Of a stretch of 63,674 nt of DNA, positions 32,390 through 35,243 are shown one piece after another. A program made the position numbers and the translations under genes. The notes under the pieces are model-generated. The model was not told the origin of the DNA and did no database searches. It saw only the letters and a list, made by a program, of their open reading frames with translations. Every line of letters begins with the position of its first letter. The stretch's first letter is position 1. The stretch comes from Chloroflexi bacterium OHK40 (lineage in GTDB: Bacteria; Chloroflexota; Chloroflexia; Chloroflexales; Chloroflexaceae), in the NCBI GenBank assembly GCA_004367505.1, contig SFCB01000166.1, positions 1 through 63,674 on the forward strand, written 5' to 3'.

Positions 32390-33055
32390 TCAAGCACTGC
32401 CGATCATGCGGTACCCCGCGCCAACCACCGTCTCGATCAAGGGGGGCTCGCCGAGCTTGCGGCGCAGCGTGTAGAGCGTCGTCCGCACCGTATTGGTGAA
32501 CGGATCGGCGTGCTCGTCCCACACCTGCTCCAGCAACGCCTCCGCGCTCACGATGGCCCCGCCGGCGAGGATCAGCCGTTCCAGCACCGCAAACTCCTTG
32601 CCGCTCAGGGGGAGGAGCTGGCCGCCGCGGGCCGCCTCGCGACGGGCCGGGTCAAGGATGAGATCGCTCCAGGTCAGCATGGTTCGCGCGGGGAAGCCGG
32701 CGCGACGGCCAAGGGCGCGCACCCGCGCAACGAGCTCGCGAAAGGCGAACGGCTTTGCCAGATAGTCGTCGGCGCCGAGAGTCAGCCCCTCGACCCGCTG
32801 GTCCAGCGTCCCGGCTGCTGTCAGCATCAGAACCCGCGCAGCGGCACCCTGGGATACAAGCGCCCGGCAGACCGCATCGCCGTGCAGAATGGGGAGATCG
32901 CGGTCGAGCACCACCACATCGTAGTTCGTGAGCGCCACCTTTTCGAGGGCGGCCTCACCGTCGCCGGCAATATCAACGGCCATACCCTCACGGCGCAGCC
33001 CACGGGCAATGCTCCTCGCCAGACTTTCCTCATCTTCCACAAGCAGGATGCGCAC
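32390..33055 (-). CDS. OmpR-family response regulator
   Basis: A 221-residue regulator: receiver domain with phosphoacceptor D51 (VVVLDRDLP) and KPF switch Lys (LAKPFAFRELVARV), then a winged-helix OmpR/PhoB domain (about 125-220, ending YTLRRKLGEPPLIETVVGAGYRM, read in two parts). I chose the GTG at 33055 because GGAGGG lies six bases upstream and the receiver strand starts RILLVEDEE. An in-frame ATG at 33076 is the alternative. Its likely targets are the export operon just downstream, and its kinase is probably the one at 26036. Confidence 0.92.
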   Translation of the reverse strand: MRILLVEDEESLARSIARGLRREGMAVDIAGDGEAALEKVALTNYDVVVLDRDLPILHGDAVCRALVSQGAAARVLMLTAAGTLDQRVEGLTLGADDYLAKPFAFRELVARVRALGRRAGFPARTMLTWSDLILDPARREAARGGQLLPLSGKEFAVLERLILAGGAIVSAEALLEQVWDEHADPFTNTVRTTLYTLRRKLGEPPLIETVVGAGYRMIGSA

Positions 33056-33354
33056 AGAAGAGCCCTCCAGTCGTATCATCGCGGGCAAGCGTGCTTCACG
33101 GCGCACAGAGCACCAGAGTTGCCGCGCAGCTACACCGTGCCGGTCTCCCCACTCAGATAGGCCTGCCCTGATATGGATAGTAGCCCGAGCCAGATCAAAA
33201 GCACATCAAACCCCGGGAGGGATCTGAGCACAGGAGATCCGGACTGCCACCTCCCCCTGGCCCCCCCGGTCGCGCCTGCGCCAGGGGCGGCACACCGCCC
33301 GATCAGGGATCGTTCGCGCGCGTCCGAGAACCCATCCCCGCTCCTTCAAGGGCG

Positions 33355-33532: not shown

Positions 33533-33561
33533 TTGCACACCACGTACAAATGTGCTATACT
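33533..33561 (+). promoter_or_regulatory. Promoter for the structured-leader gene
   Basis: TTGCAC (33533-33538), 17 bases, TATACT (33556-33561). The predicted start near 33568 gives a leader of about 135 bases before the ATG at 33703. Confidence 0.6.
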
Positions 33562-33563
33562 AC

Positions 33564-33676
33564 AGGTGCTCCTGCGACGCAGGCCGGGCGACAGAGAGGG
33601 GCCTTCGCGGCCCCAGCAACGATCGGGACGAGCACCTACGGACAGTCGGAGTAGACCGGCAGCGGCGCCGCCGGTC
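33564..33676 (+). promoter_or_regulatory. Structured 5-prime leader, possible riboswitch-like element
   Basis: Closing inverted repeat AGGTGCTC (33564-33571)/GAGCACCT (33630-33637) encloses CCTGC-gac-GCAGG (33571-33583) and GGGGCC-ttcgc-GGCCCC (33598-33614). A separate GACCGGC/GCCGGTC stem (33654-33660/33670-33676) lies 12 bases before the AAGGAG ribosome-binding site. The layout is a three-way-junction-like fold. It matches no riboswitch class I know, and the first bases of the closing arm may lie upstream of the transcript start. Confidence 0.4.
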
Positions 33677-33702
33677 GGCGCCACCGGCAAGGAGATCCCC
33701 CC

Positions 33703-34380
33703 ATGGCCACCAGCAGCGAGGCCCGCAGCGTCACGCGCACCTACCGGGCCGCCGTCCGTCTCGGCGAGGACTTCATCACGCTCGAGGAGACGATCACCCT
33801 CCCCCTCGAGGCCACCGACGAGGACGTGCAGCGCGCCGTCGAGCTCGGGTGGCGCATCTACCGCGCCCAGCGTGAGGCTGTCGAGCAGCAGGTTGGCAGC
33901 GTGCGCGAGGCCCAGAGCGCCACGACCATCACCGTGCGCGACCCGGATGCCCCCGCCAGCGACAAGCAGCGCAACTACATCGCCACCTTGCAGGATCAGC
34001 TGAGCTGGACGAATGAGCAGCTGGCGAGCTACGCCGGCGAGCACAGCGTCGACCTCGTGACGATGACGAAGGGCCAGGCCTCCACCTTCATCGATGGGCT
34101 CAAGAAGCTGGCCGAGGAGCGGGCCCGCTACGGCGGCGAGGCCCGCCCCCGCTCCGGAGGCGATCCGCTCGGAGACGGCAGCGGCTCACAGCCGGCCAGC
34201 GAGCGGCAGCTTCAGGCCCTCGCCCGCCTCGCCCAGAGCCGCGCCCTCGACCTGGACGAGGAGGCCGAGCGCCGCTTCGGCGTCGCCAGCGGCGACCTGA
34301 GCGATGAGCAGGCGCGCATGCTCCTCGGCGAATGGCAGCCCCGCCCCGCCCGCGCCACTTCCCGCCGCGGTACACCGTAA
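33703..34380 (+). CDS. Unknown protein with two DUF3072-like modules
   Basis: A 225-residue soluble acidic protein with a good AAGGAG ribosome-binding site. The N-terminal part (1-70) is a beta/alpha unit (RTYRAAVRLGEDFITLEETI ... ATDEDVQRAVELGWRIY). Two related helical modules follow. The first (about 85-140) reads ASDKQRNYIATLQDQLSW ... MTKGQASTFIDGLKKL, and the second (about 166-215) reads ASERQLQALARLAQ ... LSDEQARMLLGEW. The T/S-x-KQ ... L-T-x-x-x-A-S-x-x-I-x-x-L pattern is that of DUF3072 and of many short phage and plasmid proteins. The function is unknown. It is preceded by a long structured leader. Confidence 0.7.
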   Translation: MATSSEARSVTRTYRAAVRLGEDFITLEETITLPLEATDEDVQRAVELGWRIYRAQREAVEQQVGSVREAQSATTITVRDPDAPASDKQRNYIATLQDQLSWTNEQLASYAGEHSVDLVTMTKGQASTFIDGLKKLAEERARYGGEARPRSGGDPLGDGSGSQPASERQLQALARLAQSRALDLDEEAERRFGVASGDLSDEQARMLLGEWQPRPARATSRRGTP

Positions 34381-34394
34381 ACGACAACACCCCA

Positions 34395-34422
34395 CCCCGG
34401 CGGGCCTCGCCACCCGCCGGGG
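34395..34422 (+). terminator. Terminator-like hairpin
   Basis: A perfect 10-bp stem CCCCGGCGGG/CCCGCCGGGG with an 8-base loop, 14 bases after the stop of the preceding gene. No strong U-tract. Confidence 0.6.
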
Positions 34423-34583
34423 TCGCCACAGCTCCCCCCTTCCTCGTAACACCGCCCCGCCCCGGGTGCGGCTTCTTCCCCGGTGCACTGGAGAGAGATA
34501 GCCCTGCCCATGAGCTCATAAAGTGGGGTATCATACCAACAGGGTCCGCCGTGTGGCGAGCCAGTAGCAAACTGTGCCGAGTG

Positions 34584-35243
34584 ATGAGCGACTCGATCAC
34601 CATTCTGGTTGCCGACGACCACACGATGTTCCGCCAGGGCCTGCGCGAGATCCTCGAGCGCAAGGGCGGCTTCCAGGTGGTCGCCGAGGTCAGCGATGGC
34701 CACGCCGCCGTCGAACAGGCCCGCGAGCACCACCCGGCCATCGCCCTCCTCGACATCTCCATGCCGGGCATCACCGGGATCGAGGCAGCTCGCCAGATCG
34801 CCCGTGTGAGCCCCGAGACCCGCACGGTTGTCCTGACCATGCACCGCGACGAGCGCACCGTGCTGGAGGCTCTGCGCGCAGGCGCAAACGCCTACCTGCT
34901 CAAGGACGCCGACGCCAGCGAGCTGATCGAGGCCATCCGCGTGGTTCATCGGGGTGAGGCCGCCCTCGCCGGGAGCGCCGCCGCCCGTGTGCTCGACCTG
35001 CTGCGGCGCGGTGATAGTGCCCCCACCGCCAACGATCTGCTCACGCCCCGCGAGCGCGACATCCTGGCCCTCGTCGCCCAGGGCGACGATAACCGCGCCA
35101 TTGCCCTCAAGCTCAGCCTCTCCGAGAAGACCGTTGGCAACCGTCTCAGCGAGATCTTCCAGAAGCTCGGCGTTAGCAACCGCACCCAGGCCGCCATCGT
35201 GGCCGTGCAGCGTGGCCTCGTTCCCCCGCCCGAGATGTCCTGA
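34584..35243 (+). CDS. Orphan NarL/LuxR-family response regulator
   Basis: A 219-residue regulator starting MSDSITILVADDHTMFRQGL. Receiver with DD at 11-12, phosphoacceptor D57 (IALLDISMP), Thr in VVLTMH and Lys in AYLLKDAD. The C-terminal LuxR HTH reads LTPRERDILALVAQGDDNRAI ... TVGNRLSEIFQKLGV. The HTH recognition segment has VGNRLS in place of the common VKNHVS, which may reflect altered DNA specificity. No kinase is adjacent. The frame extends upstream, but through the terminator hairpin. Confidence 0.93.
   Translation: MSDSITILVADDHTMFRQGLREILERKGGFQVVAEVSDGHAAVEQAREHHPAIALLDISMPGITGIEAARQIARVSPETRTVVLTMHRDERTVLEALRAGANAYLLKDADASELIEAIRVVHRGEAALAGSAAARVLDLLRRGDSAPTANDLLTPRERDILALVAQGDDNRAIALKLSLSEKTVGNRLSEIFQKLGVSNRTQAAIVAVQRGLVPPPEMS

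Follow-up and report, generated by a model that had tools for sequence, protein, structure and literature searches.

The DinR/LexA box of the SOS regulon has the form GAAC-N4-GTTC, and LexA boxes overlap promoters in the DNA. In CsrA/RsmA-type regulons, several mRNAs share a short motif in the vicinity of the Shine-Dalgarno site, and GGA is invariant in the CsrA sites; the TRAP site consists of 9 to 11 GAG/UAG triplets that are spaced by 2-3 nt. T4 gp32 is a ssDNA-binding protein that autoregulates its translation through its own leader. For Chloroflexus aggregans, the Chloroflexi-1 RNA motif (RF01698) is presented in PMC2864571 as a structured-RNA candidate. The current study deals with the leader of a 225-aa gene of Chloroflexi bacterium OHK40, which is located in a window of 63,674 nucleotides (contig SFCB01000166.1; "the window" denotes this whole stretch). 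Our analysis points to an undescribed mRNA-level control signal in this leader that is shared by repair genes in Chloroflexales. No description of such a motif was found in the literature searched on LexA, SOS response, riboswitches, RNA motifs and start sites of Chloroflexi, on SSB autoregulation, on ssb, recA and mutS leaders and on DUF3072, as far as titles and the openings of abstracts tell and with most subscription papers lying outside this coverage. The proposal of the initial annotation that the leader matches no known riboswitch is in agreement with the absence of Rfam 15 matches at the gathering threshold in the window. A scan of 13 loci (E<=5 or E<=3) retrieved seven sub-threshold matches, none of them in leaders, and neither the window nor these 13 loci match the Rfam family RF01698.

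The signal is a conserved core of 29 nt, GGGACGAGCACCTACGGACAGTCGGAGTA (33625..33653, forward strand), which was recognized in alignments and by model and matrix searches and is common to leaders of ssb, mutS and recA. In the window it is organized as GGGACGAG-N4-TAC-N5-AGTCGGAGTA, and the consensus of 20 leaders of this gene, picked among those that possess the core, reads GGGACGAR-N4-TAC-N5-AGTCnGAGTA. The matrix score of the core amounts to 30.0, compared with 16.2 for the next best site of the window. Of the 38 loci of the family (L031-L068), 24 carry the core as judged by eye (L036 its second half only) and 14 lack it. A sequence model of the core yielded 47 hits at E<=1, distributed over 43 of the 82 genomes of the order; 25 of these hits represent this gene and four the recA leaders of a single genus (E 0.82-0.93). 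All remaining 18 hits were read individually; they comprise one mutS leader, one ssb leader and 16 hits that look like chance by eye, and the SSB and MutS designations were confirmed by Pfam. The strict core pattern has six hits in five of the 82 genomes, a total that is no evidence because it is lower than that of the reversed control (eight hits); its two hits in the own genome are located at this gene and at mutS.

The occurrence of a short motif close to the Shine-Dalgarno site in several mRNAs is reminiscent of CsrA/RsmA-type regulons, but the core alignments do not retain the GGA that is invariant in CsrA sites, with L047 reading ACAGTAAGTCTGAG. Triplets of the TRAP type are limited to two or three GAG per core, and the conserved two are ~15-20 nt apart as judged by eye. 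The resemblance to T4 gp32 would lie in a ssDNA-binding protein that acts on its own leader, a principle that could link genes for the handling of ssDNA; the difference is that one gene is concerned there and several here.

The distribution of the core among repair genes was investigated with a gapped matrix built from the leaders of this gene only, which was scored on 90 leaders from ssb, mutS and recA (30 per gene). These loci are the best-scoring search returns rather than a sample drawn from all 82 genomes, and the three families, the only repair families compared, had been chosen on account of the model hits and, in the case of recA, additionally of the promoter. The model itself had already detected a single leader each of ssb and mutS, and the promoter had led to the mutS leader in the own genome; the other leaders were obtained independently of these finds. 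A score of at least 18 was reached by 5/30 ssb, 6/30 mutS and 6/30 recA leaders versus 4/18,796 control windows and 0/235 control ORF leaders. The corresponding counts for a score of at least 12 are 12/30, 8/30 and 13/30 versus 82/18,796 and 2/235. The control windows were taken from the retrieved loci, some of which had been obtained via model hits, so that their rate is if anything too high. At a score of 14 the 235 control ORF leaders are already devoid of hits, and all scores on the antisense strand of these 90 leaders remain below 10. The high-scoring ssb and mutS leaders belong to several genera; the six high-scoring recA leaders all stem from Herpetosiphon and are thus to be counted as one event. 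Scores below 18 were obtained for 25/30 ssb and 24/30 mutS leaders, and the evidence from shuffling individual leaders is weaker, with p<=0.05 in 15/30 ssb, 9/30 mutS and 16/30 recA leaders. The eight mutS leaders from Chloroflexus lack the core (scores up to 0.8). The recA leaders of the families f1 and f4 score 1.9-15.6, and their ACGAG is ambiguous as a possible core copy because it is located between a Shine-Dalgarno site and a GTG, which is possibly the true start codon. The leader of the SSB paralogue at L075 also carries the core (22.5), but only one of 24 distinct paralogue leaders reaches 16. The element is accordingly not private to the gene for which it was proposed: its core is also found in ssb and mutS leaders and, within a single genus, in those of recA. 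The leader of the 225-aa gene is a real conserved cis element; its conservation, the sharing of the core with other genes, the strand of the core and, in the measured ssb and mutS copies, a fixed distance to the start codon are documented, whereas we infer an action in the RNA, a regulatory role, and the existence and identity of a bound factor.

The position of the core was determined for 36 leaders selected for a clear copy, namely, 20 of this gene, 8/30 of ssb, 6/30 of mutS and 2/30 of recA. The distance between the end of the core and the ATG is 9-12 nt in the eight ssb and 7-11 nt in the six mutS copies, and 2 nt in the two recA leaders. Among the copies of this gene, a distance of 7-10 nt was measured in four from Chloroflexus and one from Herpetosiphon; the 15 others comprise 11 copies with 46-61 nt, two with 19 nt (L066, L081) and two without a value, and the distance in the window is about 50 nt (51). 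The spacing between the core and the -10 box, which was found in 33 of the 36 leaders, ranges from 6 to 152 nt over all genes, and the core of the mutS leaders L352 and L357 follows just 8 nt past the -10 box. In the copies measured, the core of ssb and mutS is therefore anchored to the translation start and not to the promoter, since it keeps 7-12 nt to the ATG despite a variable spacing to the -10 box. Counter-evidence to the mRNA-level reading preferred below is provided by the window and ten further copies of this gene, as well as by the two with 19 nt, in which the core is located away from the Shine-Dalgarno site. The extra distance in the window is occupied by a hairpin, and the core would still come to lie near the Shine-Dalgarno site if this hairpin folds.

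The close contact with the ribosome-binding site would also be expected if the core were a constitutive translation enhancer, or an extended ribosome-binding site, of a few highly expressed repair genes that functions without any regulator: in ssb, in mutS and in the Chloroflexus copies of this gene it directly adjoins the Shine-Dalgarno site or includes it. A general enhancer should nevertheless be more widespread than the empty set of control ORF leaders at a score of 14 suggests, and the 46-61 nt that separate the core from the ATG in the window and ten other copies of this gene are difficult to reconcile with such a function, which makes this explanation rather unlikely. The core might alternatively represent the end of a leader peptide encoded by an upstream ORF, given that some copies read GTSxYxKSE-stop and that, as judged by eye, L031, L032 and L047 keep this frame open along the leader. 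This candidate was rejected: it is contradicted by one-base insertions within the core in L056, L058, L066, L070 and L076 and by in-frame stops in L035, L053 and L066 (by eye), and inspection of the window leader located no ATG, GTG or TTG in frame, so that a coding function is extremely improbable.

The preferred reading is that the core represents a Chloroflexales mRNA motif through which a putative factor coordinates the translation of repair genes, an assumption based on sequence comparisons to which we assign about even credence. In this scenario the leader would be the 5' UTR of a SOS-type transcription unit, and the plain form of the core would run into the Shine-Dalgarno site 7-12 nt ahead of the start codon. 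A trans-acting regulator would bind the core in the mRNA and tune the translation of proteins for ssDNA handling and repair, thereby establishing a second layer on top of a LexA-type promoter control. The lineage of the window would have placed a hairpin and a second Shine-Dalgarno site between the core and the start, and would have added a family-specific 5' domain that consists of a hairpin and a short GAC/GUC helix. A more specific and rather speculative version, which we consider improbable, is that a ssDNA-binding protein occupies the motif at the ribosome-binding sites of four genes (ssb, mutS, recA and the order-specific one) and that free ssDNA titrates this repressor, thus switching translation on directly. 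Candidates for the binding protein would be SSB or the 225-aa protein itself, and the system could provide a translational layer beside LexA for proteins that handle ssDNA. If the coordinating role of the core is correct, an undescribed mRNA-level control would be common to core DNA-repair genes of one bacterial order, and an order-specific gene would gain a ssDNA-handling context from the motif, the SOS-type promoter and the SSB neighbor in related families. It also raises the testable question of whether bacteria couple the translation of ssDNA-binding proteins to free ssDNA via a common leader motif.

The promoter was analyzed as the second conserved component of the locus. It comprises a predicted -35 box TTGCAC (33533..33538, forward strand), which was read from the sequence 17 nt ahead of the -10 box, and a SOS-type signal GTAC-N4-GTGC-TATACT (33544..33561, forward strand) that was retrieved by pattern searches and includes the extended -10 TGC-TATACT. 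Taken together, TTGCAC-17-TATACT, an extended -10 and GTAC-N4-GTGC precede the leader, and TTGC or TTGAC boxes similar to the -35 box of the window were seen by eye in many orthologue leaders. The promoter pattern GWACRNNYGTGCTATAMT is present in 62 of the 82 genomes of the order compared with a single hit for the reversed-pattern control; a looser pattern occurs 17 times in the own genome versus no control hits, and recA and mutS are among these occurrences. Promoters with GWAC-N4-GTGC or near forms are found at this gene and recA, and several ssb leaders carry GAAC-N4-GTTC past their -10 box. The promoter signal resembles the DinR/LexA box, and SOS control of the transcription unit is likely because of the SOS-type promoter pattern in the order and the presence of GAAC-N4-GTTC in several ssb leaders. 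The gene set with recA and ssb is also like that of the LexA/DinR regulon, from which the core differs by its location in the transcribed leader and its constant distance from the start codon in ssb and mutS. According to the initial annotation, a transcription start downstream of the stems would refute a regulatory RNA; on prediction this is not the case, as the predicted promoter is located directly upstream of the leader.

The succession of promoter and core raises the alternative that a transcription factor recognizes the core in the DNA, as an operator that lies past the promoter. SOS-type promoters precede the core at this gene, recA and mutS, and the two ACGAG-like parts within it resemble a direct repeat. 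An operator would be hard to understand given the variation of 6-152 nt to the -10 box versus 7-12 nt to the ATG in the measured ssb and mutS copies, and given that the core is confined to the sense strand. Moreover, only 5/30 SOS-type promoter loci (L149-L178) reach a score of 18, namely, this gene (L156, L158, L159, L170) and mutS (L176). An operator is hence clearly unlikely, and the assumption that every SOS-type promoter carries the core was rejected on the basis of the same five loci. The promoter searches also uncovered a conserved small ORF of ~54-62 aa (like MYEKAIIYDPETRDFAMYLDGELVGFARTFQEAETTLDELIYELL) behind the SOS-type promoter in several genomes (L110, L164, L165, L168, L169 and L171), a putative SOS-type gene. 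The promoter pattern is furthermore present upstream of two additional genes of the own genome (L109, L115), which we take to encode a radical-SAM-like protein and a RecA/Sak4-like ATPase and whose leaders have core-matrix scores of 7.7 and 7.2. In the recA leaders L100 and L132-L137 the promoter is embedded in a long palindrome (GTACATATGTGCTATAATAGCACATATGTAC in L135) that is followed by a second promoter-like TTGACA; this palindrome has the appearance of a pair of operator boxes that face each other across the -10 box.

The 225-aa gene itself (33703..34380, forward strand), an ORF with weak family matches, starts with an ATG at 33703 and is preceded by the Shine-Dalgarno site AAGGAG (33689..33694, forward strand), which was also seen by eye in orthologue leaders. 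It had been described as DUF3072-like, and a weak match to PF11272 (15.3 bits, E 0.017) does exist, but it falls below the curated cut-off of 27.5 bits. The protein is also weakly similar to the RecT-like ssDNA-annealing family phrog_561 (E 0.001, 19.5 bits), with a match that covers only positions 467-612 of the 633 profile positions. A NCBIfam search with the protein obtained no significant match, and the best hit among solved structures has an E-value of 0.33. Matches of the gene are present in 67 of the 82 genomes of the order, and 38 of the 39 matching genomes in a draw of 400 genomes from the phylum belong to the order, to which the gene is thus nearly confined. The 58 loci in the named collection stem chiefly from Chloroflexus, Oscillochloris, Chloroploca, Viridilinea, Roseiflexus, Kouleothrix, Herpetosiphon and other Chloroflexales, and from a few MAGs that are filed under other names, e.g., Singulisphaera and Gracilibacteria. 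A match to a SSB paralogue, identified as SSB by Pfam, is located beside the gene in 20 of the 31 loci L069-L099 of the families f2-f4 (L069, L071-L076, L079, L082-L089, L091-L093, L095), and none was detected in the window's own family, whose 38 loci extend over ~1.5 kb or slightly more on each side. In the window, no SSB gene was seen among the ORFs scanned beside the gene, which is flanked by response regulators at 32390-33106 (reverse strand) and 34332-35243 (forward strand), one with a Trans_reg_C and the other with a GerE domain. A relative of the protein with 63% identity over ~150 residues is encoded on the viral-filed contig IMGVR_UViG_3300012921_000046 (L302), in whose leader no core was seen by eye.

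The structural composition of the leader was the starting point of the initial annotation, and all stems named there were retrieved at their positions in the window sequence. They comprise a closing helix of 8 bp (AGGTGCTC / GAGCACCT; 33564-33571 with 33630-33637, read from the sequence), a 5' hairpin CCTGC-GAC-GCAGG (33571..33583, forward strand) with the arms CCTGC (33571-33575) and GCAGG (33579-33583), an internal hairpin GGGGCC/GGCCCC (33598..33614, forward strand; arms 33598-33603 and 33609-33614) and a 7-bp hairpin GACCGGC/GCCGGTC (33654-33660 with 33670-33676, read from the sequence). The latter belongs to the region between the core and the Shine-Dalgarno site (33654..33688, forward strand), which has two alternative foldings in the window (z -0.98). 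The supposedly unusual density of hairpins was not corroborated, because the region folds with -49 kcal/mol compared with a shuffle mean of -46.9 (MFE z = -0.67) and 54/200 dinucleotide shuffles fold equally well or better. The folding z of the whole leader is +0.30, and an excess of folding is absent among orthologue leaders, with a mean z of +0.08 and 2/46 leaders below -2 (69 loci minus 23 without a promoter by the pattern used). The closing helix was abandoned as a conserved element: all eight pairs are formed in the window copy only, at least six of eight are present in 4/13 leaders (L031, L032, L033, L049; four pairs by eye in L052), and the estimated start site at ~33568, predicted 7 nt past the -10 box (33556-33561), cuts into its 5' arm. 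Long-range pairings GGCCGG/CCGGCC and CTCC/GGAG were likewise rejected by eye as inconsistent across leaders. Some folding support exists for the hairpin adjoining the Shine-Dalgarno site, which has a mean z of -1.53 in 27 leaders.

A riboswitch-like RNA that senses a metabolite or a similar signal, with the core as its binding pocket, would require a conserved fold in addition to a conserved sequence. The latter is conspicuous: outside Chloroflexus, the core is preceded in the window's family by a 5' domain ranging from CCTGC to GCAGGCCGGRCGACAG, and the alignment of 13 leaders, which excludes the degraded or insertion-bearing L036, L039 and L040, contains 21 invariant columns. It comprises the near-invariant GGCCGGGCGACAG (33582..33594, forward strand) and the 5' hairpin, 93.8% of whose cells are paired in the 13 leaders with one compensatory change. 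The CGAC at 33589-33592 may pair with GTCG at 33645-33648; in L062, a Chloroflexus copy, GAC/GTC are jointly changed to AAT/ATT, a compensatory change of two pairs, and the pairings GCGCC/GGCGC and GAC/GUC of Chloroflexus would give an H-type pseudoknot beside the Shine-Dalgarno site. Covariation among orthologous leaders is nevertheless weak, as pair counts yielded few compensatory changes and none clearly above the shuffle control. The hairpin ahead of the Shine-Dalgarno site has three compensatory pairs in f1 (88/500 shuffles as high) and two in f4 (167/500), the 5' hairpin together with the GAC/GUC helix one in f1 (150/500) and the Chloroflexus pseudoknot two (58/500). A secondary structure of the leader is plausible but not established. 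The missing excess of folding, the weak covariation and the position of the core in L352 and L357, which leaves no room for a 5' domain, make a riboswitch-like function very unlikely. Of the proposed new cis-regulatory RNA, the conserved cis element in the leader has thus been substantiated, but hairpins are not its mark, covariation is weak and the core is present in leaders of other genes. The internal hairpin is optional and located in a variable region; it has a z of -2.18 in the window and a mean z of -0.86 in 14 leaders, being strong in some only and absent in five. In relatives this region takes up insertions (L039, L040, L042), one of which comprises ~300 nt. Two of these variable-loop insertions contain short repeats like GCAATC, and the core is kept in these leaders, in an altered form in L039.
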